NCBI GenBank assembly: GCA_030524055.1
Contig: JAUNHH010000001.1
Location: 172,156-236,155 of the forward strand
Reading direction: 5' to 3'
Origin: Actinomycetaceae bacterium
Lineage (GTDB): Bacteria; Actinomycetota; Actinomycetes; Actinomycetales; Actinomycetaceae
Length of the DNA: 64,000 nt
Shown one piece after another: positions 191-64,000 of this stretch; position 1 is the first letter of the stretch; each line of letters begins with the position of its first letter. A model generated the notes under the pieces. That model ran no database searches and had not been told where the DNA came from. It was given only the letters and a program-made list of their open reading frames with translations. The position numbers and the translations under genes were made by a program.

Positions 191-2293
191 TTACTGGGCA
201 GCTGCCTGCAACTTAGCTTTGACCTCTTGAGACTTACCGTCACGAATAAAGGTCACTGTCACTTCCGAACCCACGGTGTAGCGACGGATAAAGCCTGACA
301 GCGCCTTAGACGAAGACACCTCATTGCCATCAACGGCAACAATCACGTCACCTGCTTTCAGGCCTGCGGTATCTGCTGCTCCACCTGGGGACACAGTTTC
401 CACTCGCGCACCGGCTTTGGTCACACCATTAGCGGTCACCGCGTCGGTCGCAATAGTCACACCCAGCGCTGCGTGATCCACAGTGCCATCAGCAATCAGA
501 TCCTTGACCACTGACACCACTAAATCAGCGGGAATCGCAAAACCAAGACCAATCGACCCGGAAACTTGCGACGCAGACACACGATCATTCAACGAGGCAA
601 TCGACGAATTAATGCCAATCACAGAACCGCTCGCATCAAAAAGCGGGCCACCAGAGTTCCCTGGGTTAATTGAGGCGTCAACCTGAATAGCATTGGTAAT
701 CACAGAATCACTCATTGCAGGAGCTTTCTGAGAATTCCCACCTTCCGGGAGTTGCCCAAAAGGATCCTCCGGATTATTCGGAGATTGCTGATTCGGAGAG
801 GGCTCTTCCCCACCTTCAGTGGCAACTTCCACTGGGCGGTCCAGCGCCGAAATAATGCCCGTAGTCACGGTATTCGACAAGCCTAAGGGCGAACCAATGG
901 CCATCACCTGCTGGCCGACTTTCAGTTCTGCGGAAGTACCGAAAGTCCCCACCGTGAGATCATTTGGCGCATCAACCAGGCGAATAACTGCAAGGTCCGT
1001 GGTTTTATCATGGCCCACAATATCGGCTTTATAAATCCGCCCATCAGCCAGCGTCACGGAAATCGCTTCTTTCGCGCCAATCGCTGAAGCAATCACGTGA
1101 TAATTGGTGACAATATTGCCCTCCGCGTCATAAATCACGCCAGAGCCAACACCCGCAGCAGAATCCGTTGCCACATTAATTGTCACCACCGCGGGGGATA
1201 CTGCAGCAGCAACTGCCTGCCAGTCCGCAGTTTTACCGGTAGCGTCAACCTTAGGCACCGTATGTGAGGTCGCCTCAGCTGGGGACGCTCCGCCGCCGCG
1301 AGCGCCCTCACCAACTCCACCGCCGCCAACAACAGCCAGCGTCGTCCCTACCGTGACCAGCGCGGTCACCACCATGGCAGTACCGAGAGCCAGCCAACCG
1401 GGGCCTTTTCGTTCAGAATTTCCTTGCGAGGGCGCAGCGCCAGAGCCTGAAGAGGCGCCTGCAGCCGCAAAAGCCGAGGAGCCCTGCACGCCCTGATCAC
1501 CTGACACGCCCGGGCGGCCATTACGGTCAGTGGCCTGCCAATTTTCCCACTGCCCATAGGGCTGCCCCTGCGGCGCAGGCAACGGTGTTGGCGCGCTATT
1601 AGGTGACGGCGCAGGCAACGGGGCCGCATTTGCTGCCACCGGCGGAGTCTGCGTGGGCGCACCCCCCGCAGCAGAATTGTCGAGGGCGGGGCCCGCAACT
1701 GACGCAGCATCTGGCGCTGGCAGGTCAGTTGTGGGCTGTGCAGCCTCAGAAGCGGCAGGGGTAGTGGCGGTATAGCTCTGCGAGGTCTCACCATAGGCAG
1801 AAACTGGGCGGTTATCCCACGTCACTGGTTGAGCAGCGGCATCAGGACTATAGGTGCCGGTCCCGGGAGTCAGTGACTCCCACGCTGAGGCCGCAGAGTG
1901 AGAAGGTGCAGGGGGTGTACTTGCAGCGGATGCCGATGATGACGATACCGACAGCACAGTCGTTGTCTCGTCCTGAGAATCCCCGTCAAGACGTGCGTCA
2001 TGAGGATAGGTCCGGTGAATCCTGCGAATCTGCGTATTTTCGTCAACGGGTGCGGATGCAGCGGATGCAGTCTCTGTGGCATCAGCAGCGACTGTGGCTC
2101 CCGCATCAGCGTCAGGCGTCGCAGCGTTAGCGCCTGAACTGTCAGCAGGAGAGTCAGTAGCGTTTTCGGCCCCGCCCTCGTACATGGTTCCGCCCGCATC
2201 CGCACGATCGCCGCCGGAGTGCCCATCCTCGAATGGGTTGTCGAAAGTCTGCGCTGGCCATCGGGGGACGGTATCTTCAGGGCGGTCAGTCAT
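191..2293 (-). CDS. HtrA/DegP-type membrane serine protease with PDZ domain
   Basis: This is an S1C trypsin-like protease that should degrade or process misfolded envelope proteins outside the membrane. The 700-residue product begins with about 300 residues rich in Ala, Pro, Ser and Thr and without a signal peptide, so this part is probably cytosolic. One transmembrane segment follows (about 302-325), then the protease domain with catalytic His399 (NYHVI), Asp433 (TTDLAVI) and Ser547 (GNSGGP), then a C-terminal PDZ domain (about 605-695). The start follows a clear AAGGA site 5-10 bases upstream. The long low-complexity cytosolic arm is larger than in most actinobacterial HtrA proteins and holds copies of the dispersed word (for example at 1681 and 2169). 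Whether it is the HtrA, PepD or DegQ orthologue cannot be told from sequence alone. Confidence 0.93.
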   Translation of the reverse strand: MTDRPEDTVPRWPAQTFDNPFEDGHSGGDRADAGGTMYEGGAENATDSPADSSGANAATPDADAGATVAADATETASAASAPVDENTQIRRIHRTYPHDARLDGDSQDETTTVLSVSSSSASAASTPPAPSHSAASAWESLTPGTGTYSPDAAAQPVTWDNRPVSAYGETSQSYTATTPAASEAAQPTTDLPAPDAASVAGPALDNSAAGGAPTQTPPVAANAAPLPAPSPNSAPTPLPAPQGQPYGQWENWQATDRNGRPGVSGDQGVQGSSAFAAAGASSGSGAAPSQGNSERKGPGWLALGTAMVVTALVTVGTTLAVVGGGGVGEGARGGGASPAEATSHTVPKVDATGKTADWQAVAAAVSPAVVTINVATDSAAGVGSGVIYDAEGNIVTNYHVIASAIGAKEAISVTLADGRIYKADIVGHDKTTDLAVIRLVDAPNDLTVGTFGTSAELKVGQQVMAIGSPLGLSNTVTTGIISALDRPVEVATEGGEEPSPNQQSPNNPEDPFGQLPEGGNSQKAPAMSDSVITNAIQVDASINPGNSGGPLFDASGSVIGINSSIASLNDRVSASQVSGSIGLGFAIPADLVVSVVKDLIADGTVDHAALGVTIATDAVTANGVTKAGARVETVSPGGAADTAGLKAGDVIVAVDGNEVSSSKALSGFIRRYTVGSEVTVTFIRDGKSQEVKAKLQAAAQ

Positions 2294-2398
2294 ATCCTTA
2301 TCCTTCTCAGGAGGGTTCTTTTATAGAGTCATAGTGTGTTGGCTCGATAAGTGGAGAGCCTGGATGCAAGCTGTGGGCGGACTGTGGAGAAACCGCTC

Positions 2399-4183
2399 TC
2401 ACTGCCCGGCCCGCCGCAGAGCCACGAAAAGCTCAGGATCAGGGGCAACACGCAGGTGCACGACCTCGATCCCGCGGGGCCGCTGCGCAAGCACAGCAGG
2501 CAACTCCCCCACCTCACATTGACGGTAGCGCACCTTGTAGGCGCTGCACAGGTCTAATAGCGATATATTTTGTGGCGTTTGAAACCATCGCTGATAAACC
2601 TCAGGGGTGGCCCGGCCATGTTCCAAGGTCGAAAAAATCGACCCACCCCCATCATCCACCACAATAATACGCAGGTCAGGAATGGTTTCATCAGCGGGAA
2701 TAGCCAGCGCTGCCGCATCGTGGAAAAAGGTCAGGTCCCCCATCAGCGCATGGGTCGCCTCCCCTGAAGCCAACGCCACCCCAATAGCTGTGGCCACCGT
2801 CCCGTCAATCCCGGCCAACCCGCGGTTAGCAATTGCCTTTCGCGGGCCAGGTCCATCAGCAACGAGGTCGAGGGCCCGAATAATTGACGACGCCCCGACA
2901 ATCAACGGCCCCCCGCCGCAGGCATTCCACACATGCCGCGCACTATGAGCCGCACCCGGCACGCCGCTTTCAAGAAGCCCACTCATCGCCACGCGAATCC
3001 GCTCGCATTCACTGATCCACCGCTGAAGCCACGACACAGGAGGCACGGCAGTTCCTGAAGGCGACGCAAAATGCTCGTCATGCGGCGCCTCCGCAGGTTC
3101 CAAAGCTGCCACAACCAAGGCAGCACGTCCCGCAACATCGGTCCACGTTGAATACGGACACTGGACGACAATCCGCAGATCCTCACGCGCAAGCAGCGCA
3201 GATACCGTTCGCGACAAGGTCGGTCGCCCCGTAACAACCACCTGCTGCACCTCATCTGCCAACGACGACGAAAGCAGGCTTTGCTCGAAAGGCAAGAAAT
3301 TCGCCGCCCCCGCCACACCCGACGTTGGTTCGCCCATAAGAGGGATCTGCGCAGCCTCCGCCCACTGGGGAGCCACAGGATCTGCCCCCTCACCTGCAAG
3401 AATAATAGTGCGCAATGCGGGGTCAACTGCCCCAATCCACGCAGTAGCACATGGGGCAGCAGGCACAACCGTCGTAGAGCGCGCCCAATCGACGAGGGCG
3501 GGGCCAGGCCTTTGAGGCGCGTGGTCATCGGCTGGGTCTGGCTGGCGGGCGCTCGCGGGCGGCCCTAAGGGGTCACGGAAAGCGACATTGATCTGGACTG
3601 GGCCGGGTTCCCCTGTGGGGTAACCGCAGGCAAGAGCAATAGCCCGAGTCAGCGTTGAGCGCACATCGTGACCACGTTGACCTGCTGGAATATCCCAGTG
3701 TGCGCGCACATGAGAAGCAAAAATCCCGACCTGATTAGTGGTTTGTGAGGCGCCTACTCCACGCATTTCAAAGGGCCGGTCAGCGCTAATGACAATCAGT
3801 GGAACCCGGCTGTGGCTCGCTTCAGCTACTCCTGCGTGAAGTTCAGCCACTGCCCCACCTGAGGTGGTGACAATCGCAACAGGAGTGGGTGTGGTCAGTT
3901 CGTGGGCGTCCGCGGGCCCAGTGCTGCCCCTGGATAATCCGAGGGCTAAAAAGGCTGCTGAGCGTTCATCAAGGCGAATATGTGCACGGATCTGACCGGC
4001 AGAAACAGCCTCGTGCAGCGCATAGGCCATAGGGGCGCTGCGCGAACCTGGGCAATAGACCACATCATGTACTCCGCCTTCAATCAGTGCTGCGGTCAGT
4101 GCTCGGGCGCATTCTATTGACGCTGAATCACTGGTTGGCGCGTGAGGATTTCCGGCCCCGGCCTCGTTATTCATCGTCATCAT
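2399..4183 (-). CDS. menD: 2-succinyl-5-enolpyruvyl-6-hydroxy-3-cyclohexene-1-carboxylate synthase (MenD)
   Basis: MenD is a thiamine-diphosphate enzyme of the menaquinone pathway; it adds 2-oxoglutarate-derived succinic semialdehyde to isochorismate. The product carries the N-terminal CPGSRSAP motif, the GDLTFFHD segment of the ThDP/Mg site and the GGGSIF stretch typical of the family, and its length of about 600 residues is normal. I prefer the ATG at 4183, preceded by a strong AGGGGAGAAG site. An in-frame ATG at 4225 lies 1 bp after the menC stop and could also be used through coupling. The gene is directly downstream of menC and is probably co-transcribed with it. Between menD and htrA lie 105 bp holding the htrA ribosome site. 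Confidence 0.94.
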   Translation of the reverse strand: MMTMNNEAGAGNPHAPTSDSASIECARALTAALIEGGVHDVVYCPGSRSAPMAYALHEAVSAGQIRAHIRLDERSAAFLALGLSRGSTGPADAHELTTPTPVAIVTTSGGAVAELHAGVAEASHSRVPLIVISADRPFEMRGVGASQTTNQVGIFASHVRAHWDIPAGQRGHDVRSTLTRAIALACGYPTGEPGPVQINVAFRDPLGPPASARQPDPADDHAPQRPGPALVDWARSTTVVPAAPCATAWIGAVDPALRTIILAGEGADPVAPQWAEAAQIPLMGEPTSGVAGAANFLPFEQSLLSSSLADEVQQVVVTGRPTLSRTVSALLAREDLRIVVQCPYSTWTDVAGRAALVVAALEPAEAPHDEHFASPSGTAVPPVSWLQRWISECERIRVAMSGLLESGVPGAAHSARHVWNACGGGPLIVGASSIIRALDLVADGPGPRKAIANRGLAGIDGTVATAIGVALASGEATHALMGDLTFFHDAAALAIPADETIPDLRIIVVDDGGGSIFSTLEHGRATPEVYQRWFQTPQNISLLDLCSAYKVRYRQCEVGELPAVLAQRPRGIEVVHLRVAPDPELFVALRRAGQ

Positions 4184-6313: not shown

Positions 6314-6369
6314 GTAGGGGCCGGGGCACACGAGGCGCGGGCCCCGCCCTCGTCCCTAGGGCATTGTGC

Positions 6370-9300
6370 CTATACCCAGTGACTTCGCTGGCGCGCACTG
6401 GTCCGCGATCCCCCACGATTTTGGGTGCGGGCTGCATGAAGAACCTCCATTGCGCGCGGGTGCGAGCGCGTATCAATGACCGTTGCTGGGCCAACCGCCC
6501 TATTCCACGCTTTTTGGAAAGCCGCCGCGCATACTTTTTTATTCCCTACCACTACAGGCACCGCTAAATAGTGGTGTCGGCCTTGCACTACCCAATTCAC
6601 TACTTCTGCTGTCATATTTGTCAACGGATCGACCATTTCCAGCATTTTCGAGGAAAACTCCGGCACATGACCGATTTCTAGAATATGCCGAGGCCGACCC
6701 ACGCTAATGGGGGTAAAAAGCTCCGTTAATGCTTCCTGAAATAGGCGGCGTTCTTTTTCTGAACCCGCATTGAGACTCACGTGAATATACGCCGATTCGG
6801 TGACGGAAATAGAGCTGGGATCAATTACCGCAGAGATCACTCCCGCTTCCTGCATTGCGGCTAAAAGCGCATGTGCGGCTTGCCGATAAACAGCAGCAGG
6901 AAAGGCCCTACTCTTCCACGAAAGAATAAGCATACGCCACGTATTCATACCCACAAGTAGGGCACCAAGGAGTATTCCTCCAAGGAATAGCAAAAGAATA
7001 ACCCGCAGGGGCAAAACCACTAATAGGCGTGGATTGCGCGCAAAAATATAGACCCCCATCATCACCACAAAAGTCACAGCCGTGACTATTCCGAACAACA
7101 CCACTAGAGGGGTATGCGCTGACATAAAAGCAAAACGCGGTTTCTTCGACAGGACAGTTTCTTCATGCGGCTGCGAGCCCACAGGCCCAGTTCCCCACAT
7201 TCTTTTCACCGATTCTCGCGGCACTAAACCCGCAATAGTGGCTGTATTCAACCTCCCAATAGGATCACGTTGTTCATGTGGGGTAATCTCAGCGTATCCG
7301 CCCGCAAGGTGATCTACTACTAATTGCTGGCGATAATCTAAAACGGCATCCCGCCCAGAAACAATCACGCCATTGTCAAAAACAGCGCCCTGATCGGCGT
7401 TAAGGCTCTTCTTATCGAAATCAACACGGCTTGGCCCCCATAAATGCTCGACTTTTTGCGATAATCGACGCAGTTCGGGCGTATTATCAATCCCCGAATT
7501 GTGGCCAGCCACCGTGACAACAATCCAATTATGAGCAGCTTTATTCGGTGCGGCAGGATCTAGACGCAGCGCACGCCCATGTAATTGTTCCACCGCGGTG
7601 CGGGTTGTCACCGACGTCAGGTCAATCACGGTGTTCAGGCTTGGGCAGTCCCAGCCCTCGCCGAGCAAACCGCGCGTCCCCACCAGCAGGTGGACCTTGC
7701 CTGCTTCCATTAAGTCCGCGAGCGCCGCCACCATTGCCGCTGAACTCGCGCCTCGAGTATCGACATGAAGAATCTCTTCTCCAGGATTTGTCACGGGCAG
7801 TTCCGCGCCTACCACTGCGCGCAGATCCTCAAGAAGATGCTGATCGTCGGCCAGAAGGCGGCAGTGTTTCGCGGTGATCAGCACCGGATGCATTCCGCGC
7901 ACTTCAGGTGCGGCAGTAATCACTCGGAAACAGCGCAGGGCGCCGCCACGATTCAGATCATTGTCACGTTTTTCCTGCTCAGCTAGGACTGTACGTTCGT
8001 TATATTCCGCTAAGTCAGCGACAACGGCAGCTTTCAGGCCAGCCCCAAAATAGCGCTGTTCCAGTGAAAGAATCTCAATGACAGCGTCTTCTTTTGCCCG
8101 CGAACGTGACAGTGTGACCTCCATTGGATTACGACCTTTGCGCAGTCCCCGATCGGTGAGGTGGTAGCCGTAGGGGCGCAGCAGCGAGCGGATCTCCTCC
8201 CACTGGCCACGCTTTTGCGGGTCGGTCAGTAGGCGCGTGAGCGCATAGCGGGCAAGGAGAAGGAGTCGATCATCAACTGTGGGACGTCCGTCGTCAGGCA
8301 GACGCTCAACAACGGCTCTTTCGAAGGTGGTCAGTGTTTGTGGGGATTGGCGGGCAAGGAATCGTGATGCCGCCAAGGTCAGATAGGGGTCAGTTTCCAT
8401 TGCGCCAGCAATCCTGGCGTCAATTTCTTTCGACGAGGGCGGGGCGTCACCTTCCCCACCTTCGGAGCCAAGAACGGCGCAGAGAAGAAAATCCCTCCCC
8501 ACCTCAGAATCAAAAATCCGCTCAATATGCCCAGTGAGCTGCCCGGCATGTTTATTGAGGAATGTCATCTCCTCACGGGTGGGTTTCGTAAACCAAGCCC
8601 AGGTCCGATACGGCGCAAGATCGCCTGCGCGAATCACAGCAGGTGTGGGCACTTCATGGTCAATATCGCCCAATAGTCCCTCATAATTCGCGACCTGACC
8701 TGGGGTGGAAGGCTCCGGGTGGGTGGCAGTCAAGCCAATCAGTAACGGAGTTAGCCCCGACTGCAAAATTTCACTGCGTAAAAGAGTGACTACCAGCGCC
8801 CAATGATCAAGTAAATGGTGGCATTCATCCAAAACAATAGTGCGGACACCATGGGCAACGAGGGCGGAAATACATTCACGTGCGCCTGGGTGCAAGGTCA
8901 TTTTCAGAATATCCGGGTCCAGGCTTCGCATTGTTTTCCGTAAAGCGGCCGCCCTTTTCCTCAGGCCCTCGTTATAGGCGTCAGGATTATTCTTTTCGAG
9001 GGTGACCAACCATTCTTCGGCGATTTTCTCACTGGACCGGGCTACTCCCACTTCGCGGAGCCATTCGGCACGGGCGAGGTCAAGAAAAGGGTTATTTTTG
9101 TCAACCACGCTAAGGCGCTGGTAGGTAATGATCGTAATATCGCCAAGATTATCCGGGTCAGTACTAATAAGGGGAGCTACCCCGCTGCCCTGGGGGTCGT
9201 CACCTGAGGTGGGAGAAAAGTATTCGCGGGCCTGGGCAGCCCATTGATCCCTGATTACTGTGGTGGGCGCCAGGACCAGCGCACGCGACCCCGCTCTGAC

Positions 9301-9534
9301 GGCAAGCAACAGACCGAGGAGTGTTTTTCCGCTCCCAGGTGGAGCAACCAGATGGATAGCCTGGTTGCCGTCCTCGCCGCCATGCAGCTCCTCGTCAGTG
9401 ACTTCATCCAGGACGGTGCGTTGGTAAGAACGCAGGGTTCCAGTGAAGGTCAGGTGCTGCAAAGGAAGGGACGAGGGCGGGGCGTCAGTCACTCCTTCAG
9501 AGTAATGCGTGAGGGTCTGCCCCGCCCTCGTCAA
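6370..9534 (-). CDS. Superfamily 2 DEAD/DEAH-type helicase with membrane-spanning C-terminal region
   Basis: The 1054-residue product has the SF2 helicase motifs: Walker A APPGSGKT near residue 65, the Walker B variant DECHH, motif III LTATH, and a C-terminal RecA-like half with GLLGEGWDCP and a QLHGRALR arginine-finger motif. After the helicase core, about residues 805-870 hold two hydrophobic segments, followed by about 180 residues that read as a soluble domain. A helicase with membrane anchors is unusual. The 5' end is uncertain: the longest frame starts at a TTG within an inverted pair of the dispersed word (9471-9532), 3 bp after menB, and the GTG at 9492 is an alternative. The substrate is unknown. 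It might act in defence, in DNA uptake or in RNA handling at the membrane; the sequence does not decide. Confidence 0.85.
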   Translation of the reverse strand: MTRAGQTLTHYSEGVTDAPPSSLPLQHLTFTGTLRSYQRTVLDEVTDEELHGGEDGNQAIHLVAPPGSGKTLLGLLLAVRAGSRALVLAPTTVIRDQWAAQAREYFSPTSGDDPQGSGVAPLISTDPDNLGDITIITYQRLSVVDKNNPFLDLARAEWLREVGVARSSEKIAEEWLVTLEKNNPDAYNEGLRKRAAALRKTMRSLDPDILKMTLHPGARECISALVAHGVRTIVLDECHHLLDHWALVVTLLRSEILQSGLTPLLIGLTATHPEPSTPGQVANYEGLLGDIDHEVPTPAVIRAGDLAPYRTWAWFTKPTREEMTFLNKHAGQLTGHIERIFDSEVGRDFLLCAVLGSEGGEGDAPPSSKEIDARIAGAMETDPYLTLAASRFLARQSPQTLTTFERAVVERLPDDGRPTVDDRLLLLARYALTRLLTDPQKRGQWEEIRSLLRPYGYHLTDRGLRKGRNPMEVTLSRSRAKEDAVIEILSLEQRYFGAGLKAAVVADLAEYNERTVLAEQEKRDNDLNRGGALRCFRVITAAPEVRGMHPVLITAKHCRLLADDQHLLEDLRAVVGAELPVTNPGEEILHVDTRGASSAAMVAALADLMEAGKVHLLVGTRGLLGEGWDCPSLNTVIDLTSVTTRTAVEQLHGRALRLDPAAPNKAAHNWIVVTVAGHNSGIDNTPELRRLSQKVEHLWGPSRVDFDKKSLNADQGAVFDNGVIVSGRDAVLDYRQQLVVDHLAGGYAEITPHEQRDPIGRLNTATIAGLVPRESVKRMWGTGPVGSQPHEETVLSKKPRFAFMSAHTPLVVLFGIVTAVTFVVMMGVYIFARNPRLLVVLPLRVILLLFLGGILLGALLVGMNTWRMLILSWKSRAFPAAVYRQAAHALLAAMQEAGVISAVIDPSSISVTESAYIHVSLNAGSEKERRLFQEALTELFTPISVGRPRHILEIGHVPEFSSKMLEMVDPLTNMTAEVVNWVVQGRHHYLAVPVVVGNKKVCAAAFQKAWNRAVGPATVIDTRSHPRAMEVLHAARTQNRGGSRTSARQRSHWV
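9471..9532 (-). repeat. Inverted pair of the ACGAGGGCGGGGC word behind menB
   Basis: One copy reads forward at 9471-9483 and one reads reverse at 9520-9532, just beyond the menB stop codon. The two could pair into a stem of about 13 bp and act as a terminator or attenuator for menB transcripts. The called start of the downstream helicase lies at the edge of this pair, which makes that start suspect. Confidence 0.7.
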
Positions 9535-9537
9535 TCC

Positions 9538-10518: not shown

Positions 10519-10593
10519 GAGACCAGGATACGTGGGTGTCATGAGAAGAACGGTGTACGAGGGCGGGGCCGCCATTTGCCGTGAATAAAAGAA

Positions 10594-14675: not shown

Positions 14676-15308
14676 GTGGCCCGAATACTTCTGTTCGTTA
14701 TCTGGATCGCCCTGACTATTTACGCAGTGGCGGATTGGGCGCGCACGCCCGAAAACGAGATCCCGGGTCGTATCCCTAAGCCCATGTGGCTGGCCATTAT
14801 TATCTTTACCGCGCCAACCTTTTCCATTGGCGCCATTGTGTGGATTGTTTTGAGGCTGGTTGCTGCGGCAGAAGCTGGAAATTCCTCCACTGGCTCCTCG
14901 CCCCGTTCTGGCGGTGGGTCAGCTAGCCCATTGCCTTCGTTGACAGATCTTTTCCCTGGGGCTGGGGGTGGCCGGAAATCGTCTCAGGCGAAGAGCGGCG
15001 CACCTGACGACGATCCAGATTTCCTTTTCCAGCTTCAGCGTGAAATCCACCGTAAGCGCACAAAAGAAGCCAAGAAAGCAGAGCGCTCGGGAGCTTCTTC
15101 TCCTATGAACGAGGGCGGGGCCTCTAGCGAGGCTACAGCGCCCGGCGAATCTGCCGTCTCCTCACCAACTAGTGCCGCGAGCACTCATCCAGGTGCGGAT
15201 AGCGCCTCCCCAACTAGCGCCCCTGCTGACTCAGACGCAGAGCCACATAGCCGCGACCAGTCCACAGATCCTGATCAGGGCTCTGACACGCTGGACAACG
15301 GGCAGTAA
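14676..15308 (+). CDS. Small membrane protein, PLDc_N-like
   Basis: The 210-residue product starts at a GTG. It has two closely spaced transmembrane segments (about 1-20 and 36-60) that resemble the PLD nuclease N-terminal domain (PLDc_N) common in actinobacterial small membrane proteins. A charged and Ser/Ala-rich cytosolic tail of about 140 residues follows, part of it basic and probably helical (EIHRKRTKEAKKAERS). The tail includes MNEGGAS, encoded by a copy of the dispersed word at 15108. It lies 66 bp downstream of menA and could belong to the same transcript. No catalytic motif is seen; function unknown. Confidence 0.7.
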   Translation: MARILLFVIWIALTIYAVADWARTPENEIPGRIPKPMWLAIIIFTAPTFSIGAIVWIVLRLVAAAEAGNSSTGSSPRSGGGSASPLPSLTDLFPGAGGGRKSSQAKSGAPDDDPDFLFQLQREIHRKRTKEAKKAERSGASSPMNEGGASSEATAPGESAVSSPTSAASTHPGADSASPTSAPADSDAEPHSRDQSTDPDQGSDTLDNGQ

Positions 15309-15413
15309 AGGCGGGGCAGTAAAGGCACTGGCCCGCAGTCTGCGCACCCGCGCGCCCCTCAAGGTTGGCAGGCGCCCCGCCCTCGTTCATGAGGGCGAAG
15401 CGCAAGGCAGCGA

Positions 15414-16079: not shown

Positions 16080-16186
16080 AGGTGAATTGTGGCACGAGGT
16101 CGGGGCTGGGAGCTCACTCTATGGGCGGCAACCGCAGTTTCACGCCCCGCCCTCGTTAATGATCTGCACACCCCGCAGGCAAAGCG

Positions 16187-16948: not shown

Positions 16949-18631
16949 GTGGCGCAACACGATGATCAGGATCCACGAGCTTCCTCACAGCCTTCTGCGC
17001 CTTCTCCTCCCGTCACACCTTCGTCAGCGTCTGCCCCGTCTGCATCGCGGTGGCACAGGGGTGCGGGCGCTCAGAATGCGGGGTCGTCGTCGCGCCACGC
17101 AGGTACCAGTAGTTCAGGTGTGTCTCATCACACGAGGGCGGGGCGTCCTTCTTCGGGGGCACCTTCTCGCCCACGTTCCTCGCGGATAGTAACTCCCGAG
17201 GATTTGCCCTCGGCGACTGGCGCCCAGGTCCGCCCCGTTGGCCATGACGCCAGGGCACATATGCGGCGCACCAGTTCTGAAACCTTCCGCGTGTGGTTTA
17301 CGCAGGCTGCCCGAAATTCTCCGTCCCGTCTTGCGGTTGGCATTTTTGCCGGGATTATTGCCATTGAAACAGCGCTTTTGGCGCTGCCCATTTCTTCGGC
17401 AAATGGCCAGCCACCCAATTTCGTGGATATTCTTTTTACTGCCGTGTCTACCGTGTGCGTCACTGGGTTGACCACTGTTGACACTGCCACCCAATGGTCC
17501 ACTTTTGGACATGCGGTGATTGCTATTGGGGTGCTTATTGGCGGTCTGGGAGTCATGACATTAGCCTCCATTTTGGGTATGGCTGTGTCACGGCATTTAG
17601 GTCTGACCCAGCGAATGCTGGCCGCCCAAGAAACCAAACAGGACGATATGAGTCGCCTTTCTGGGCTGCTTGTCGCTGTTCTTGTCACCTCTTTAACCGC
17701 CCAGGGTCTCCTCTTTTGCTTCTTCTTCCCGCGCTTTTTATCGCTAGGGGGATATACCTGGGGGCAGGCCGCTTGGGAAGCCACTTTTATGTCGATTTCG
17801 GTGTTTAATAATGCCGGTTTTACGATTATGCGCGGAGGCCTGGCGCCTTTTGTTAACGACTGGTGGATGCTTTTCCCGATTATTATCGGGTCGGCTGTAG
17901 GCGCTGTCGGTTTCCCTGTCATTCAGGATCTCGCTAAACGGTGGCGCCGCCCCCAAACCTGGGCGCTCCACACGAAATTAACTCTGGCTGTCTATTTAAC
18001 GCTGACATTTATTGGCGCCGTGATGTTGGGCCTAACAGAATGGTCAAATCCGCATACTTTGGGTGCTCTTGATATTCCCTCACGCACATTAAATGTGCTT
18101 CTTGCCGGGGTAAATACCCGTTCTTCTGGACTGTCTGCATTAGACGTTGGCGCGATGCGCACGCAAACGCACTTTGTTCAGGACATTCTCATGATGATTG
18201 GGGGCGGGTCGGCCTCCACCGCTGGCGGCATTAAGGTGACGACTTTTGCGGTGCTCCTGCTGGCCGTGTGGGCTGAAGCCCGAGGTGACCGCGATATTGA
18301 GGTCTTCCACCGGCGTATTCCGCCAACGGTTGTGCGCCTGGCTGTGGCCGTCACACTGATGGGCATCGCCCTCGTATCTGTTTCTGTCACCCTCCTGCTA
18401 ACGCTGACAGACCTGTCCCTAGACATTGTTCTCTTTGAGACGATTTCTGCTTTTGCCACCGTTGGCCTGTCCACAGGTGTCACCCCTGCCCTACCAGATC
18501 CAGCAAAGTATGTCCTTATTGCCCTGATGTTTGCGGGGCGAACGGGAACAATGACAGTAGCAGCAGCCCTGGCCCTACGGGAAGGCACGCGGGTTATCCG
18601 TATGCCTGAAGAGCGCCCGATTATTGGCTAG
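16949..18631 (+). CDS. TrkH/KtrB-family potassium uptake membrane protein
   Basis: This is the ion-conducting subunit of a Trk/Ktr potassium transporter. After a low-complexity cytosolic N terminus of about 100 residues come repeated membrane-pore-membrane units. Their selectivity-loop sequences are visible: TVCVTGLTT, FNNAGFT, VNTRSSGLS and FATVGLSTG. The frame opens at 16862, but I choose the GTG at 16949 because GGAAGGAGG lies 6 bp upstream; the product is then 560 residues. The trkA-type gating subunit is encoded 80 bp downstream. The N-terminal arm includes a copy of the dispersed word (17131). Confidence 0.94.
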   Translation: MAQHDDQDPRASSQPSAPSPPVTPSSASAPSASRWHRGAGAQNAGSSSRHAGTSSSGVSHHTRAGRPSSGAPSRPRSSRIVTPEDLPSATGAQVRPVGHDARAHMRRTSSETFRVWFTQAARNSPSRLAVGIFAGIIAIETALLALPISSANGQPPNFVDILFTAVSTVCVTGLTTVDTATQWSTFGHAVIAIGVLIGGLGVMTLASILGMAVSRHLGLTQRMLAAQETKQDDMSRLSGLLVAVLVTSLTAQGLLFCFFFPRFLSLGGYTWGQAAWEATFMSISVFNNAGFTIMRGGLAPFVNDWWMLFPIIIGSAVGAVGFPVIQDLAKRWRRPQTWALHTKLTLAVYLTLTFIGAVMLGLTEWSNPHTLGALDIPSRTLNVLLAGVNTRSSGLSALDVGAMRTQTHFVQDILMMIGGGSASTAGGIKVTTFAVLLLAVWAEARGDRDIEVFHRRIPPTVVRLAVAVTLMGIALVSVSVTLLLTLTDLSLDIVLFETISAFATVGLSTGVTPALPDPAKYVLIALMFAGRTGTMTVAAALALREGTRVIRMPEERPIIG

Positions 18632-19395: not shown

Positions 19396-19507
19396 ACGAG
19401 GGCGGGGCGCACTGATACCACCGCGGGAAGAATTCACAGCGCCTACTATGCGCAGGTGGCGCGCCAGCGATGGTGCTTCGCCTGTGAAAACTGCGCCCCG
19501 CCCTCGT
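19396..19507. terminator. Long inverted repeat between convergent trkA-like and disA genes
   Basis: Perfect 16-bp arms ACGAGGGCGGGGCGCA (19396-19411) and TGCGCCCCGCCCTCGT (19492-19507) enclose 80 bp that contain a second, inner inverted pair (TTCACAG / CTGTGAA). It sits between two convergent genes, the place for a two-way terminator, and both arms are full copies of the dispersed word. Confidence 0.75.
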
Positions 19508-22004: not shown

Positions 22005-22094
22005 GGAACCACAGTAGCGGGGGCCACCCACATCTGAGTGCGGCCGGCAGGTGGGGCGCGGGGGTCTTTTTCTTTTCGACGAGGGCGGGGCGCG

Positions 22095-35199: not shown

Positions 35200-35256
35200 G
35201 TTTTGTGGCGAGTTGGCCCAGGCGAGTTCCGCCGGGCTTACTTCTGCCACTTTTTA

Positions 35257-35324
35257 CGAGGGCGGGGCGCGTTTTTGATGAGGTAACTTCCGGGTTGCCT
35301 TACGAGGGCGGGCCCCGCCCTCGT
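35257..35324 (+). terminator. Composite inverted repeat behind ppa
   Basis: A full copy of the dispersed word at 35257-35269 followed by a T run, then an almost perfect 23-bp palindrome at 35302-35324: ACGAGGGCGGG, one C, CCCGCCCTCGT, followed by TTGTTTT. The palindrome is two head-to-head copies of the word. Position 58-125 bp beyond ppa fits transcription termination. Confidence 0.7.
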
Positions 35325-35670: not shown

Positions 35671-38600
35671 ATGGAAATGACCGCTGAGAATGCGGGCGCG
35701 CTGCGCGGGCTCGCTGATGTGGAGTATGACTTTGGCGTGTCTGCGGCGGTAGCGGGCGCATTTAAAGCAGCGTCACTGACGTTACGCGAACAGCGCGGTG
35801 GGCGCACTTCTGCTCGGGATAAAGGCCGCGAGGAGTTCCGCGGTTTTTATGCGGATCTGTATATTGCCAATGGAAGTGTGCAGATCCAAGATATGGGCGA
35901 GATTGGCGACTTCTTAATGAGTGTCTCGCGCCAGATAGAGCGGGTGGATCAGGCGGCGCGTGAGGAGAATGCGCGGCGGCGGCAGGCTCGGGAGTGGGCA
36001 CAGCGCCAGGCGAATCGCAACCTGGCTGACCATATCGTCGGGATTTTCACCGGGGGTGAGGATCCGCCTTTCCAGTCCATTGACACTGCTTCTCGTGGTC
36101 CGGCAACGACGGTGCCCGCTCGCCAACCTCATGAGCGTCAGCCCCTGTCTGGTAGTGGTGGGGATGGGACAACCTCCGCTATTGCGGCAAATCTGCGTTC
36201 TTTTGCCTCCTCCACGCGGGGTATGGACGGGGCGGTCAGGGACCTGCCAGGGAAGTTGCAGGGACATACGGAAGATTTTGCTGCTTCGTGCCGGTGGGCC
36301 ACTTTGGATGCGTCCAGTGTGATTTCAGCGCTGCGTGCGTGGGTTGCGCAAAATGAGCAGGACGCTAGGTGGGCTGATGTTGTTGCCGACGCTTTTGAGG
36401 CAGCTGGCAGTGAAGGCGTAATGACGTTGCCTGATGCGACCATTGATGCCTCACTTCGTAATGCGGGTGTAAGTCAGGCGCGCGCAGATTTGCAGGTGGA
36501 CCCGCCGAGTGCTTTTGGCTCTCCTCCAACCACGGGTTATGCCGATGATCCGGTCAATACTGCCTCGGGCGGGTTTGTCGAGTTCGAGGTTGATGTGTCT
36601 TTTGCTGGGCGGGCTCAGGTGGCCTCCTGGAAGCGCGCCTATTCGTCTTTGAACCCTGATGTTGGGGCTTTTGGGGTTGGGTGGTCTTCCTGGGCTGATG
36701 CGGGACTATCTATGAACGAGGGCGGGGCGCGCCTGCGCCTCATGGATGGCCGGGTCATTTCTTTCCCTCGTGACGGCACTGGTTGGGGCAGGGCAACTGG
36801 GGAAAGTCTGTGGCTGCACACTGCTGGCGGTGCAGGCCAGGCGGACGCTGCCACCGACGCCACTACGGACGCTGACGCCCAGCTTGGTGCGGGTTTTGTG
36901 GTGTCTTCTCCGTGGGGTTTGCGCGGGCATTTTGACGCATCTGGGCGCGTGGTGTCCTGGTGTGAGAATGGCACGACGCTGCGTTTTTCCTACGGCGACG
37001 ACGGCTCTTTGGAGGGGGTGACCACCGAGGCTGGGCGTGGGGTGCGCCTGGTCTGGAACTCGGGCCGTATCACCGAAGTGGTGGCCTCTGATGGGCGGCG
37101 CGCCAAGTATTCCTATGACGAGGGTGGTCGCCTGACCAGGGTGGATGGCCCTGGCGGGCGCCGCGAATACCACTATGGGGCTTCTGGTCTGATTGAACGC
37201 GTTGTTGATGGCGATGGCGTTGTGGAAGTGGATAACACTTTCGACGATAGTGGGCGGGTTGCCTTTCAGACTTCGCCGCTTGGGCGGCGCACAAAGTATG
37301 CGTATATCCCTGGTGGGATTACTGTCACTAGTGACGAGGACGCTACGCGGGCTAATACGTGGATTCATGATGGGCGCGGCCGCCTACTGGGCATTATTGA
37401 TGCTGATGGACGCCGCCAATCCATGTCCTATGACCGGTGGGGCAATACTGTGCTGGTACGAGGGCGGGACGGCCGTCTGGAAGCCAGTGAGTATGACGAT
37501 CGGGGCAGGCCCACCCAACGCAAACTCACCACGGGTGCCCGGCTTGCCTGGACTTGGGACAGTTTGGATCGCCTGACCGAGTTGCGGGTTTTGTCAGCCC
37601 CAGATGCCACCCCAGCGGTGACGCATTTCGAGTACGAGGGCGAGGCTACCAACCCATCCGTCGTTGTTGATGCTGAGGGCGGCGTTACGCGCATGGAGTG
37701 GGACGGGCCCCTTTTAGCGCGGGTGGTGGATCCGACTGGTGTTGAGGTGCGCTTTGCGTATGACGCCTTTGGGGATCTGATCAGCACAACGGATGCTTAT
37801 GGGGCGACCGCTCGCTTGGAACGCGATGAGGCAGGCCGTATTGTCGCTGCGATGACCCCGATGGGCCACCGCACTACCTTCACCTACGACGGGGCGGGGA
37901 ATCTGGTGGCGCGCCGCGCCCCTGATGGTGGAATCACCCGGTGGGAGTACACAGCTGGGGGCCGCCTTGCGGCGGAGGTGGACGCGGAAGGGGGCCGCAC
38001 CCTCGTTGAGCATGACGAATCTGGCCAGGAGAGCGCCACTATTGACCCCCTGGGTGGCAGACTCGAAAAAACGTGGGATGACCTGGGTAATCTTGCTAGC
38101 GTCTCTCTGCCTGATGGGAGCACGTGGCAGCTGACCAGCGATGCGAACTCGCGTCTGACGGAGATTACTGATCCAACGGGTGCGCAGTGGTCCATGACCT
38201 ATGGGCCGACCGGCACGGTGTTAAGTGTGTGCGACCCGCTTGGGCAGCACCGCGTGGTCGAGCGTAACGGCCAGGGCCAACCCACTGCTGTGTTTGATGG
38301 CGATGAGACGATCCGCGGGCAGTACGACACTCTTGGCCGTCTCCTGTCCATTACGGGTAGTGATGGCACTACTCAGGTGGTGCAGTATGACCGTTTAGGC
38401 CGCATTGTTGAAACTGTGGACGCCTGTGGGGCGGCGCGGCGTATCAAGCGAGATGCTGCCGGCCGTATTGTGGCGGTCACTCACCCTGATGGGCGGGTGC
38501 ACCGTTATGAGTACGACTTGGCTGGCCGGTGGTGTGCGACGATTTCTACTGGTGGGGATAGGTATGAGTTCCACTATGACGTGGACTCGAATCTGGTTGG

Positions 38601-41600
38601 GGAAACCTGGCCCACCGGGGATCGCGTGACGACGACTTTTGATGAGTGCGCACGCATCACGTCCAGGCGGGAGCCTGGCCGAGGTCTGGTCACTATTGCC
38701 TATGACAAGTGCGGGCGGATCATCAGGATGCGCGACCCGTTTAACGGTCCCCGCCGTTTCACCTACGACGCAGCTGGACGCATGACCAGTGCCACCAATG
38801 CTCTTGGTGGTGTCACGCGTTTTGGTTATGACCAGTCGGGCCGTCAAAGTACGGTCACAGACCCTCTTGGTGGCACACTGACCCGCACTTTTGATGCCGC
38901 AGGCAGGGTCACCTCCCTCACGGACGCTATAGGGCGGACCACAACCTTCACGTGGGATGGCCTGGGGCACCTGACCAGTCGGACCAGTCCCACTGGCACT
39001 AGTGTTGCCTACACGTGGGACAAGGGGCGACTGACCTTCACTACGGTAGATGGGCGGCTGCACAGCAGTAGTACGCATGATCCGGCGACACGCACCACCC
39101 GCACCACCATGGCAGCCACGGGTGAAGTCCTGGAAACTGTGCTGGACCCTGTTGGGCGGCTCGCGTCGCGCACCCGCGATGGGGTTGGTGTCTCCTATGG
39201 GTATAACGCTTCTGGTCACCGGACCTTTATGCGTCGCCCTGATGGGAGCGTCACCACCTATGAACACAATACAAATGGGCATATTACCCAGGTTCACGAC
39301 CCGCGCACTGGCACCATCGCCTTAGAGCGGGACGCACTCGGCAGGGTCACCAGTATCGAGGGCGAAGGGCTAACAGCATCCTTTAGCTACACCGGTGCGG
39401 GCCTAGAAAGTAGTGTCATTAATCGGGGTGGGTTTATTCAACGCACGTCCAGCACCCGCGATGATGATGACCGGGTCGTGGCCCACACTGTGGATGGCAT
39501 TACCGTCTCCTACTCATTTGACGAGGCCGGACAGCTGGCCAGCGCGACGTCCAGTGAGGGCCACACCACCCACTATTCGTGGGATGCTGCGGGCCGTCTG
39601 GCAGAAGAACTCACCAATGGGCATTCCACCACTTATCACTATGACGCAGCTGGACAGTTACTGTCCTCAAAGGGCCCTGCCGGGTCAGTTCACTACACCT
39701 ATGACGCCCAAGGGCGCCGCACCGCGCAGCGTGCTGGTAGCACCGAACGGCGGTATTCGTGGGACCACCGCAGTTACCTGACTGCGATTACTGACATTGA
39801 CCATGATGGGGATACTCCTGCCGTGCGGCGCACCCCGATCACGGTGGACGCTGGCGGAGAACTTGCCACTGTTGGCACGCAGGACGTGTATTGGGATAGC
39901 GCTGCGGGTCTGCCTACCTTGGCGGCTTATGGCGCCAATATTGTCGTGGATGCCTTTGCTGCCACCAGTGTGCACGCCACAGCCGCTGAAGGCACCTGGC
40001 TCATCCCTGGAATCGACCCAGACCTGGACCTCACCCCACAGCCTGCCGCTGCCCACGCAGTGGCAGGTGGTGCGGTGCCAAGCGTAGATGGGGTTCCTGG
40101 CGTGGCAGGTGCCAGCGTTGCTGGCCTCTCCGAGGTAGCGGGTTCTGGGGTTTCGCGCCCCGCCCTCGTCCATGATGCGCTGCCACTAGGGATCACCGCA
40201 GGGGCCACACCCACCTTGGATGGGGCTGAATGGATGGGCCGGCGTGTCCTTGACCCCGCCACTCACGCATTCTTATCCCCTGACCCGCTCCGGCCAGTGC
40301 TGGGTTCGGCGTGGGTCGGCAACCCCTATTCCTACGCGGGAAACAACCCCGTCACCATGAGTGACCCACTGGGATTGTCGCCTGTGACGGAAGCAGAACT
40401 GCGCGCTTACGCCGACAGCAACAACGGGGTCCTACACAACACTGCCCAATGGGTGGGCGACAACTGGGAATACATTGCCGCGGGCGCCATGATTATCGGC
40501 GGAATCGCTGTCATGTGCACCGGAGTTGGCGGGCCCGTTGGCGCTGCAATGATTGCTGGTGGGCTCTTCGGAGGTGGCGGCTCGATCGGTGTACAGAAAT
40601 GGACCACCGGGAAAGTTGACTGGGGCAAAGTCGGTGTCGATACCGTCATCGGCACCGTATCTGGACTGGCTGGCGGTGGGGCAGGCACTCTGCTCCGCAA
40701 TGGCACCACCCAAATGACCAACTGCCTCGGGCGCAACATTTTGGTTGGTACTGGAGAAAGTATCGTTGAAGGCGGCGTCTCCAACGCGCTGAACTACGTG
40801 ACAGGCCCGGGCCCACACACCGCAAGCGGCTTATTCCAGGCCACCACCTCCAGCCTTGGGATGGATGCTCTGCTTGGCGCAGGTGGCGGCGCATTAGACA
40901 AATTCACTGGAGCCTCACGGATTGGCTGCTTCACCGCCGATACTCCCGTGCTTATGGCGGACGGGACAAGTAAGCCCATTAGCGACGTCGCTGTTGGTGA
41001 TGAAGTGTCCAGCGTTGACCCCGCTACGGGCGAAACTGTGCCCGCGATGGTGGAAAATGTCCTCATCCACGAGGACGTGCCCACCATGGTGGTCACCACC
41101 AGTGATGGCACGATTGAAACCACGGCCACCCACCCCTTCTATGTGCAAGGGTATGGATTTACTCCTGCTGAGGATCTGCGTGAAGGCGACCGCCTACGCA
41201 GCTCCGACGGGCAAGAAATCACCGTGGTGGCCATTGAAGCCACCGGCCAAACCCACACCGTCTACAACCTCACCACCACAACCCACACCTACCACGTCCA
41301 CACCGAAAACGGGGTGGCAGTACTGGTGCACAATGAGTGCGGTACCGGCGGAGCGGACACGCCAGGGTCTGGTGGAGGCAGTGGAGGGCACGGGACACCA
41401 CCTGGCGGGAGCAATAATCCTGACGGTGGAGAGTTCCCCGACTGGAATGGAAGAGTTACTTTCGGAGAGCTCAATGAACATGGCCAAGCCACTGGGATGA
41501 GCGCGATTATCAATGGTGACATGCTGACCCACGGCACGAAAGCGAATTCAAGTATCGAACCTCCTGGTTGGGACGGGCCAAATCTATTTGATAGAGGACA

Positions 41601-50013: not shown

Positions 50014-50044
50014 ATACCTTCGATCACATTGGCAGGTGAGAAAA

Positions 50045-55540: not shown

Positions 55541-57238
55541 TCAGACCACACGCACTGCGTAAGGCATGACGTTATCCCAGTCGTAGATTGCGGTTTCGCG
55601 AACGGGAACTCCAAAGGTGGGAGCCTCGATAATCTGACCGTCACCTAAGTAGATGGCCACGTGGTAGACGGTGCCAACTCCACCCTCGCCCCAGAAGATC
55701 AGGTCACCTGGGATCGCTTCTTCAACGGGGACATGGGTACCTTCTTCGTACTGAGCAACAGACCAGTGGGTCAGCTCAATACCTTGGCTGCGGTAAGCAA
55801 CGGTGACCAGACCAGAGCAGTCGTATCCGGGGCCTTCACCGCCCCACACATACTCTGCGCCAAGCAGAGAACGGGCGTGGGCAATGGCGCCTTGAGCCTT
55901 ATCAGGGTTGTGAGCGGGCTCTTCGGGTTCAGGTTCCGGTTCTGGGGCCGGCTCAGGTTCGGGAGCAGGCTCTACAGGAACGTCTTCAGCCTGAGGTTGG
56001 TCAGGTGCTGGCTGTTCAGGTGCAGGAGCCGGGGCTGGCTCGGGTGCTGGCGCAGGAGCGGGTTCCGGTGCTGGCGCAGGAGCCGGCTCGGGTGTTGGCG
56101 CAGGCGCCGGAGCCGGCGTTTCCTCAGCCGCAGACTGGGGAGCCTGGTCGGCTGATTGAGCCGCAGCGTCGCTGGCAGACTGGGCCCCGCCCTCGTCACC
56201 TGATTGCGGAGCAGCGGACTGTGCGGCATCGTCTGAATCAACGCCAGCAGACGGCGCTTCGTCAGCAGCGGCAACGTCACTTTGTGCCGGATCGGAAGGC
56301 GCAGCATCAGACTGGGCAGCCCCACTTGCTCCGGCGCCTTCCTCCGCACGGGCAGCATTCTCCGCAGCCTCCCGTTCAGCAGCCTCACGCTCGGCAGCCT
56401 CAATACGTGCCCGCTCTTCGGCAGCATTCTTCAGGGCCTCTTCAGCAGCCGCCTTCTCGCGTTCCGCTTCAGCCGCGGTTTCACGCTCATTAATCGACGC
56501 AACCGTCGTATTTTCCTTGCGCGCCAACTCTGCAATCAGAACTTCACGGCGCACAGAGGTATCTTCGCGCTGAGCCACAGCCTTATCAGCAGTAGCCTTG
56601 GCGGCTTTGTAGCGTTCCTCCACCTTAGCGGTGTGGGCAGCCTGGTCTTCCTTAGCCTTCTGCGCGGACTCTGCCATCGCATTCTTGACCTGCTCAAGAG
56701 CAGTCAAGCGCTGCATTTTCGCGTCAGCATTCGCAGAGAATGAGTCCAAGGTATTCGCGCGGGTTTCCACCTCACGCAGGCCATCAGCCTTTAAATATGG
56801 ACTCAACGCATCTAGGCCACTAGAACCTTCACGGTAAGCCGTCTGCGCAATGGCAGCGATTTCCTTCTTCGCTGCCTCAAACTCTTCCTTCGCTGCCTGA
56901 GCTTCAGACTGCGCAGCCTCAGCCTTCTTGGTCGCTTCCTTCAGCGCAACGCGGGCGCCGTTGTATTCCTCGGCAGCTTTCTTGGCCTGGACAACGGCAT
57001 TCTCCGCAGAAGACTTTGCGTTAGCGAGTTCAACTTCGATCTGCGCAATGGACATCTTGGCGGCGTCTTGCGTCACCTTGCCCCGGTCGATTGCCTCACT
57101 GGGCGTTGCCGCATTCGCCATCGAGGGAATGGCGAGTGCAAACGTCGCAAGCACAGCCGCTACTGCACTGCGCCGCACCCTATGGGTCCGTTTCCTCGAT
57201 ACGTAGGTCACTGTTGTGCCACCTGTCGCTGTCGTCAC
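55541..57238 (-). CDS. Secreted NlpC/P60 peptidoglycan endopeptidase with coiled coil
   Basis: A 565-residue RipA-like cell-wall hydrolase that should cleave stem peptides during cell separation. A signal peptide covers about residues 1-43 (ending SMANAATP). A coiled coil rich in Ala, Glu and Lys (about 45-300), likely autoinhibitory as in related hydrolases, comes next. A Pro/Ala/Glu-rich spacer with repeated PAPAPEPAP runs from about 300 to 445. The NlpC/P60 domain is C-terminal, with catalytic Cys in YDCSGLV and His in VYHVAIYLGDG. The spacer includes DEGGAQS, encoded by a copy of the dispersed word (56183). Confidence 0.94.
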   Translation of the reverse strand: MTTATGGTTVTYVSRKRTHRVRRSAVAAVLATFALAIPSMANAATPSEAIDRGKVTQDAAKMSIAQIEVELANAKSSAENAVVQAKKAAEEYNGARVALKEATKKAEAAQSEAQAAKEEFEAAKKEIAAIAQTAYREGSSGLDALSPYLKADGLREVETRANTLDSFSANADAKMQRLTALEQVKNAMAESAQKAKEDQAAHTAKVEERYKAAKATADKAVAQREDTSVRREVLIAELARKENTTVASINERETAAEAEREKAAAEEALKNAAEERARIEAAEREAAEREAAENAARAEEGAGASGAAQSDAAPSDPAQSDVAAADEAPSAGVDSDDAAQSAAPQSGDEGGAQSASDAAAQSADQAPQSAAEETPAPAPAPTPEPAPAPAPEPAPAPAPEPAPAPAPEQPAPDQPQAEDVPVEPAPEPEPAPEPEPEPEEPAHNPDKAQGAIAHARSLLGAEYVWGGEGPGYDCSGLVTVAYRSQGIELTHWSVAQYEEGTHVPVEEAIPGDLIFWGEGGVGTVYHVAIYLGDGQIIEAPTFGVPVRETAIYDWDNVMPYAVRVV

Positions 57239-61073: not shown

Positions 61074-61167
61074 GCGCTTTATTCGACGAGTTCCTCCATG
61101 AGAGAATCCCAGTGCGTTCTTCGCATTTGCTTGGCTAGTTTTTTCTTCATGAACGAGGGCGGGGCCC
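61073..61167 (+). repeat. 95-bp direct repeat, copy 2 (orphan metX 3' end)
   Basis: An orphan piece of metX: it still reads SALFDEFLHERIPVRSSHLLG-stop in frame. It begins at the last base of the toxin stop codon. With copy 1 it encloses the antitoxin-toxin pair exactly, which marks the cassette as an insertion at the end of metX. Confidence 0.95.
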
Positions 61168-63138: not shown

Positions 63139-63139
63139 T

Positions 63140-64000
63140 CTAGAAACCGCCTGGTTGTGGTGTGCTGTCGCTATCGTGTCCCTGTTCGGGACCGATTGCC
63201 TGGACTACCCGTGCCATCCAATGTTCTGGCGGCTCGGCTGCACGGCGCTGCCTGGACATTTCCACAAGGCGCGCACTTAACACGCTCGCGCTCGCCACAT
63301 CAATATGCAGCACTTTCGCTTTAACAAGCCCCGCAACAAGGTCCATTCGCACATTCGCTAAACCTAGTTGCCGCAATATCGGCCCTTGATCAATGGTGGC
63401 GGATTGAAGGCGTTCAACGGGAGCCAGAACCAGGGTTTGATAAATGCGCCCATTACGAATAGCCAAAACAGTATCCGTTAAAGCAAATGCGCGACGCCCC
63501 TGCACAATGGGGTCAATAATTTTTGCCGAGGGCGGGGCAGCTCTAAACCACTGGCCGGAATTCTTCCCATTAAATGCCTCCTCTAAGAATGAGTGCGGAT
63601 CAGGAACACCTAAATCGCGCACTACCAGCCACAAAGCGAGTTCTGCTTCTTCACGTGTACCAACAGGGAGGAGCACTTGCTCGAGCATTTGGCTGTTTTC
63701 TTCATTGTGATCCACAGTGGCACCGGCTTTTAAAATGGTGACTCGATACCACCCTAAACGTCGCCATAATAGGGGCCGGGAAATCCGAATAGCGTGTACG
63801 CGGCGAGGGGGAATAGTTTGTGCACGCGTGTCGGTAAGCCCTCTACGCACGCGAATGCCGTCAGGAGAAACGGCCGCTTTAAAGCCGAACTCCCCGGCAA
63901 ATCGCGACCACATAAATGTGAGCGCACCAGCAAAGCCGCCAAACATACCCCATAGTGCATTCAGTGACGCCCAGCCCACGTGACTAAAGGCGATCACGAA
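63140..64000 (-). CDS. bPH2 (YdbT-like) membrane protein, partial at window end
   Basis: The 5' end lies beyond the window. The visible C-terminal part of about 285 residues starts in a hydrophobic segment, then shows one bacterial PH-like domain (AVSPDGIRVRRGLTDTRAQTIPPRRVHAIRISRPLLWRRLGWYRVTI) and a second (RRAFALTDTVLAIRNGRIYQTLVLAPVERLQSATIDQGPILRQLGLANVRMDLV). This is the layout of YdbT/YdbS bPH2 proteins that precede DUF2520 and panC in actinobacteria. Their function is unclear. A copy of the dispersed word lies inside (63527), between the two domains. Confidence 0.88.
   Translation of the reverse strand, partial: FVIAFSHVGWASLNALWGMFGGFAGALTFMWSRFAGEFGFKAAVSPDGIRVRRGLTDTRAQTIPPRRVHAIRISRPLLWRRLGWYRVTILKAGATVDHNEENSQMLEQVLLPVGTREEAELALWLVVRDLGVPDPHSFLEEAFNGKNSGQWFRAAPPSAKIIDPIVQGRRAFALTDTVLAIRNGRIYQTLVLAPVERLQSATIDQGPILRQLGLANVRMDLVAGLVKAKVLHIDVASASVLSARLVEMSRQRRAAEPPEHWMARVVQAIGPEQGHDSDSTPQPGGF

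Follow-up and report, generated by a model that had tools for sequence, protein, structure and literature searches.

A putative DNA-uptake sequence in a bacterium of the Actinomycetaceae

To our knowledge, short words by which DNA is tagged as a cell's own have been described until now from just two families, both of them proteobacterial. According to the available parts of PMC12616744 and PMC3630211, genomes with a DNA uptake sequence (DUS) or an uptake signal sequence (USS) contain hundreds or thousands of motifs, often arranged as inverted repeats that serve as terminators, and the dialects of these motifs keep a fixed inner core. Genomes of every Neisseriaceae dialect hold many inverted pairs (PMC3630211, same parts). 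The window analyzed here is the whole stretch of 64,000 nucleotides at positions 172,156 to 236,155 of contig JAUNHH010000001.1 (assembly GCA_030524055.1, Actinomycetaceae bacterium), and the element in question is a word, ACGAGGGCGGGGC, that recurs throughout it. A sequence-only reading of the window, made by a model, had compared this word with the uptake sequences. Both the pattern of the word and the machinery encoded in the genome support this proposal: the extended motif ATkrACGAGGGCGGGGC is probably a DNA-uptake sequence of a naturally transformable actinobacterium.

Among actinobacteria, Micrococcus luteus needs its Flp pili for transformation and has two tad-like clusters in addition to comEA and comEC, a combination described as common in the actinobacteria (PMC6370729 and PMC4322843, in their accessible portions). 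PMC4322843 uses none of the terms "uptake sequence", "homologous DNA" and "heterologous". A search by title and abstract, with subscription papers and preprints outside its scope, gave no report of such a word in Actinobacteria, nor of transformation in Schaalia. Transformation of epibionts grown on such hosts is described in the accessible part of PMC10633639.

Abundance and placement of the word

The 12-mer CGAGGGCGGGGC has 26 exact matches in the window (57% G+C), the very number counted by eye in the sequence-only reading, and each lies at most one base from the position given there. Its expected count is 0.03 (100 dinucleotide shuffles, none of which reached 26), in agreement with the earlier estimate of well under one. 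The full 13-mer ACGAGGGCGGGGC accounts for 23 of these 26 copies, 12 forward and 11 reverse. Fifteen further places differ from the 13-mer by one mismatch, three of them being the 12-mer without its leading A. A genome-wide count had been set beforehand as a test. The host genome (3,034,260 bases in 47 contigs, 98% complete) contains ACGAGGGCGGGGC 727 times, in forward orientation at 363 places and in reverse at 364, versus none on either strand for the reversed word. This is not the compositional expectation, and the similar frequency of both orientations claimed for the window also holds for the whole genome.

The surroundings of the copies were studied in a sample of 451 kb, consisting of 387 kb of fetched sequence and the window (55% G+C; 88% coding according to a simple gene caller). 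Exact copies number 112 there, copies with a single mismatch 107 and those with two mismatches 109, versus 0, 1 and 26 for the reversed word and 0, 12 and about 160 for two other control words. The single mismatches fall mostly at positions 7, 11 and 13 (77 of 107). On the 5' side the core is preceded by A (frequency 0.65), T (0.71), then T/G and G/A. The 5' flank preference noticed earlier is therefore real and is better given as A-T-(T/G)-(G/A) before ACGAGG. For the 70 copies outside genes the A and T frequencies reach 0.76 and 0.77; among the 42 in coding sequence the preference is weaker, at 0.48 and 0.60.

By placement, 68 of the 112 copies are intergenic, 2 lie at a gene edge, 27 are sense and 15 antisense, with all three frames used both ways. 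Neither class is explained by background: 42 coding copies compare with none in each of 50 within-gene codon shuffles, and 68 intergenic copies with 0.005 expected from an order-2 Markov model. The word had been described as spread over genes and gaps. Both do hold copies, but not evenly, given that 70 of the 112 are intergenic or at a gene edge in a sample that is 88% coding. Per kb of gap, the density is 4.61 in convergent, 0.90 in tandem and 0.62 in divergent gaps (69 copies placed). A further 220 kb was scanned, made of eleven stretches outside the 451-kb sample, three of which were picked for competence or pilus genes and one of which (20 kb, L164) had been scanned for the word earlier. 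There, 34 of 54 copies are intergenic, 13 sense and 7 antisense, so the intergenic bias is repeated; the convergent excess is smaller (2.47 per kb, versus 1.45 in tandem and 0.50 in divergent gaps).

Twelve of the 106 neighbour pairs in the sample are less than 150 bp apart. All twelve are oppositely oriented, and in eleven of them the forward word leads; most of these lie in convergent gaps, a few to tens of bases behind stop codons. Allowing two mismatches, the word occurs in 27 of 48 convergent gaps of 20–250 bp, in 15 of them as opposed pairs. The host genome contains 46 inverted pairs of CGAGGGCGGG, and each of 212 other genomes of the family has at most 2. Within the family, pairing of this kind is a peculiarity of the host species.

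Related words in other genomes

The host was correctly recognized as actinobacterial in the sequence-only reading. It belongs to the Schaalia/Actinomyces group of the Actinomycetaceae; the closest named DisA is that of Schaalia suimastitidis (83%), followed by those of Actinomyces and other Schaalia species. Among 213 genomes of the family, a second type of word, TTTCCGAGGGCGG, occurs in 130 copies (65 on each strand) in genome G182, and in 73, 56, 34, 16 and 7 roughly strand-balanced copies in 5 of the 11 species of genus g37. Another genome, G233, has 13 copies and the host itself 10. The reversed control is absent from these eight genomes, and no genome among the 213 has more than 2 matches to it. 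Copies are found both in and between genes in G182, G168 and G174; in G171 the first three sampled were all in genes, and a larger sample gave five in genes and one between. In G182, G168, G174 and G171 the coding copies number 14, 5, 6 and 5, versus none in 20 codon shuffles for each genome.

Both types share the core CGAGGGCGG with a 5' A/T-T-T stretch. The base adjoining the core is A in the genome of the window, and G182 and g37 have a C there; the 3' GGC is specific to the first type. In the G+C-rich genus-mates G007, G013, G014 and G015 the 5' AT preference is weak or absent. A joint pattern, TTNMCGAGGGCGG, was counted in the same 213 genomes: 470 copies in the host, 298 in G182, 168, 138, 83, 58 and 30 in g37, 44, 36 and 28 in g55, and 20–46 in eleven more genomes. 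In total 21 of the 213 genomes have at least 20 copies, with the reversed control at most 3. Among 183 genomes from 19 other families of the same order (198 drawn), none exceeds 11, with controls up to 6; these sampled genomes are at background. A 21-kb stretch of the Actinomycetaceae metagenome-assembled genome S5R_St_27 (L042) shows an excess of CCGAGGGCG (16 versus 1.5). The same core with a changed flank, carried by some species of two other genera of the family, resembles the dialects of uptake sequences. Each type is confined to certain genera and is patchy within them.

Two further words, ACGAGGCCG and ACGAGGACG, are raised in some relatives, lie mostly in coding frames and are not counted as dialects here; for ACGAGGACG in G013, 15 of 42 copies are intergenic. 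Other repeats were met in these genomes. Those of GAACAGAGCGGACTTCG type in Actinomyces provencensis G014 (L140–L144) and in L015 form another family, many of them in short direct arrays, and AGAGCGGACTTC has 14 copies in 100 kb, 10 of them intergenic. Mainly intergenic repeat families in G013 (L125–L129) are AGTGTGCGATCC, CGAGACGGCGATCC and CGCGCTTGTTCA, with 10, 13 and 14 copies in 100 kb. In G007 (L135–L139), AAAGTGATGCTTTC forms short direct arrays between genes, with 5 copies in 100 kb. The near-palindromic AGGCTCCTG and AGGAGCCTG have 9 copies each in 21 kb of S. cardiffensis (L029) versus 0.4–0.7 expected, and TACTTACTA has 5 copies in 20 kb of G035 (L155) versus 0.06 expected.

Competence genes and alternative explanations

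A search for competence and pilus genes had been suggested together with the word. In the host genome, comEA (SLBB and HHH domains) adjoins comEC on contig C46 (L164 11585–14064), and two Tad clusters (L247 and L248) each comprise T2SSE and T2SSF genes and one Tad-domain protein. A small protein with TTVEYAIG (L247 5899–6150, Pfam DUF4244) resembles the Flp pilin of M. luteus as presented in the accessible part of PMC6370729. The small pilin-like open reading frames of both clusters (L247 5094–6150 and L248 13133–14678) are receptor candidates only. Features shared with DUS and USS genomes are hundreds of copies in both orientations, presence in genes and in gaps, a conserved flank, inverted pairs at gene ends for the first dialect, and competence genes.

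Several observations weigh against an uptake sequence. The competence machinery is near-universal, word or no word, among the relatives searched (ComEC in 55 of 58 genomes, T2SSE ATPases in 58 of 58, ComEA-type HHH in 33 of 34). No link between the word and these genes was seen there, and the machinery therefore does not predict the word; competence genes show that uptake is possible and do not explain which genomes carry the word. S. suimastitidis has 0 copies, 22 of 34 genus-mates have at most 4 and only 7 have 21–162, and TTTCCGAGGGCGG is present in 0 or 1 copy in 6 of the 11 g37 species. The second dialect is hardly paired: one opposed pair was found among 91 core words in G182, and for three g37 species the figures are 1 of 40, 0 of 24 and 0 of 26. 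In this it is unlike the Neisseriaceae, all of whose dialects have many such pairs in the accessible part of PMC3630211. Finally, the strong intergenic bias, highest in convergent gaps, is what a terminator would be expected to produce.

The word could indeed be chiefly a terminator stem, the inverted pairs at gene ends forming hairpins in the RNA and the solitary copies being half-sites or relics. The density in convergent gaps, the frequent opposed pairs in them and the position of the pairs close behind stop codons all speak for this possibility. However, the 42 copies in genes are mostly solitary, a called gene contains a member of a close pair in only one of 12 cases, and the coding copies retain the AT flank, more weakly. 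Moreover, the ATkr flank is no U-tract, the intrinsic-terminator form (a predicted hairpin without U-tract) holds for paired copies only, and the second dialect is strongly over-represented while hardly paired. We regard this explanation of the word as improbable.

A similarly small chance is given to a binding site for a chromosome-organizing, recombination or segregation protein, of Chi, KOPS (FtsK-orienting polar sequence) or nucleoid type. An asymmetric, G-rich word with hundreds of copies genome-wide, inside and outside genes, would suit such a role. Sharp strand polarity had been named in advance as a sign of it, and none was found: the best two-arm agreement of orientations is 59% in G007 (49 of its 69 places), versus a shuffled mean of 64%, and 59% versus 62% in A. 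provencensis, a genus-mate of the host (all 80 places). The host itself was assessed on one 240-kb contig (C3), where 29 forward and 20 reverse copies are mixed, both orientations occurring in 9 of 12 bins. An apparent polarity in G013, a long run of forward copies among the matches listed, was taken as an effect of their order and discarded. Chi and KOPS are 5–8 bases long. The word, at 13–17 bases, is longer, and its flank differs among related genera. The polarity results do not bear on a binding protein without polarity.

Copying of a selfish repeat by a transposase, such as a repetitive extragenic palindromic (REP)-like element or a remnant of a miniature inverted-repeat transposable element, would fit the intergenic bias and the inverted pairs and is very unlikely on other grounds. 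No shared sequence beyond about 17 bases was seen among the copies of the 451-kb sample, and a Y1/REP-type transposase (PF01797) was found in none of 9 word-bearing genomes, against 5 of 14 in the control set. The window has 25 coding sites of the core CGAGGGCGG, 9 of which are spanned by a homologue from the fetched relatives and 16 are not. At each of these nine checkable sites one or more homologues align without gap, and of the 110 alignments of a site with a homologue 66 are ungapped, which points to an origin of the words by substitution. Several of the words fall in variable segments of proteins or in their tails. A comparison of orthologous sites in g37 (10 rows, 5 distinct loci), a check also proposed earlier, gave mixed outcomes and counts as weak evidence. 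The word is kept in both G168 and G171 at one locus, one difference between G170 and G173 is explained by substitutions without gap, and three loci lie in gapped, poorly aligned stretches, one of these keeping the 9-mer core in one of two relatives. A phage origin was also considered and rejected: ATNNACGAGGGCGGGGC occurs in 51 viral contigs, a raw count without chance estimate, with one match in each, so that no virus is enriched.

A codon or composition bias (Asp-Glu-Gly-Gly-Ala in G+C-rich codons) has next to no chance of making the word common, although DEGGA or NEGGA is the reading of 19 among the 42 copies in genes and relatives of 65–69% G+C have moderate counts: it is refuted for the host genome by the absence of the word from codon shuffles, by the occurrence of copies also in antisense, in all frames and mainly outside genes, and by the background level of the other sampled families, and it may account for part of the counts in the G+C-rich relatives.

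An uptake sequence is therefore the most likely explanation, since the Chi/KOPS, REP, phage and codon readings each fail a test and a terminator leaves the coding copies and the unpaired dialect unexplained. For such an uptake sequence we propose that the word would be bound at the cell surface by a DNA receptor, for which a minor Flp/TadE-like pilin is the likeliest candidate, and that DNA of the own kind would thereby be favoured. Word-bearing DNA would then pass ComEA/ComEC and recombine. Since a better word would lead to more frequent uptake of the fragment that carries it, copies may accumulate by point mutation where tolerated, chiefly in intergenic DNA and after stop codons. The paired word behind genes could double as a terminator stem. 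It is somewhat likely, in our opinion, that this represents a third, independent origin of uptake sequences, in the Actinomycetaceae, with self-recognition by a Tad/Flp-type pilus, at least two dialects acting as barriers to exchange between genera, and co-option of the word as a stem behind convergent genes in one species. If true, uptake sequences would have arisen convergently in a Gram-positive phylum that has Tad/Flp pili. A group of host-associated bacteria would then be likely to undergo natural transformation, and the dialects would be of use for testing the effects of uptake preference on genomes and species barriers.

Copies in the window and comparison with known systems

Window proteins match MenB, MenC, MenD, MenE, MenA, DisA, TrkH, HtrA, FtsH-type and other families. 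The four inverted pairs noticed earlier are all present. The pair at 9471..9531 (forward copy at 9471, reverse at 9519) stands behind menB, its first copy lying within the first codons of the next called gene. The pair at 19396..19507 (19396 forward, 19495 reverse) lies in the convergent gap between gene 18713–19381 and disA. The pair at 33126..33197 (33126 forward, 33185 reverse) occupies a tandem gap, and that at 35256..35324 (35256 forward, 35312 reverse) has an additional one-mismatch forward copy at 35302. Single 13-mers in convergent gaps are found at 6341..6353 (reverse; gap of 56 bp), 15374..15386 (reverse) and 61153..61165 (forward), and one in a tandem intergenic gap at 16144..16156 (reverse). 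Two forward copies are placed ahead of called starts and inside the longest possible frame: 17132..17144, in the divergent gap before the trkH-like gene, and 22079..22091, directly upstream of the radA-like gene.

Within genes, the HtrA-like gene 191–2293 contains a 12-mer copy without leading A at 1681..1692 (forward, antisense) and, in its 5' part, a 13-mer at 2169..2181 (reverse, sense). Antisense forward 13-mers lie in menD (2399–4174) at 3492..3504, in gene 6370–9492 at 8433..8445, and at 10557..10569 in the N-terminal part of menB, outside the homologue-aligned part. A forward copy at 15109..15121 falls in the variable C-terminal part of gene 14676–15308 and is ungapped in two of three spanning homologues. 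The reverse copy at 28537..28549 reads NEGGA in the sense direction and belongs to the variable tail at the C terminus of ftsH. The large gene 35671–41871 carries two 13-mers, at 36716..36728 (forward, sense) and 40157..40169 (reverse, antisense), and gene 55541–57178 one at 56184..56196 (reverse, sense). The two remaining 12-mer copies are at 31884..31895 in gene 31166–32230 (reverse, sense) and at 63527..63538 in gene 63140–63946 (forward, antisense).

In the region 35671–55312 a row of genes comes after one that encodes more than 2000 residues, and two of three members of the row that were tested have SUKH-type domains; as a guess, this is a polymorphic toxin with an immunity array. The repeat TTCTTTTGGATGTGGA occurs four times in this region (42198, 43568, 48052 and 51228). 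The word-free part at 40.2–56.2 kb with the SUKH genes was considered as recently acquired DNA and rejected, being the third longest of 94 gaps and not significant; the spacing of the word is not clearly different from random (p 0.12). At 24247–26922, FolB and HPPK domains are combined in one frame of 891 residues, the long remainder of which has no Pfam match.

Compared with described systems, the host resembles M. luteus in having comEA and comEC together with a pair of tad clusters, one of which encodes an Flp-like pilin; for M. luteus, the available portions of PMC6370729 and PMC4322843 describe no uptake word. With the Pasteurellaceae USS it shares many copies and inverted repeats, which serve as terminators there and may do so here, and the USS also has two types with fixed cores. 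These cores, AAGTGCGGT and ACAAGCGGT, are unlike the word found here (PMC12616744, parts available), which is one continuous motif with an AT-rich 5' side. The Neisseriaceae DUS, recognized by the ComP receptor, is unrelated in sequence. Here the host is actinobacterial and has Tad/Flp clusters, the second dialect is hardly paired, unlike all Neisseriaceae dialects in the portions consulted, and the uptake role is, as in the comparison with the USS, a putative one. What the two have in common, as far as those portions describe the DUS, is a very large number of copies in coding and intergenic DNA, inverted pairs with a terminator role (a putative one in the host), and dialects built on a fixed core.

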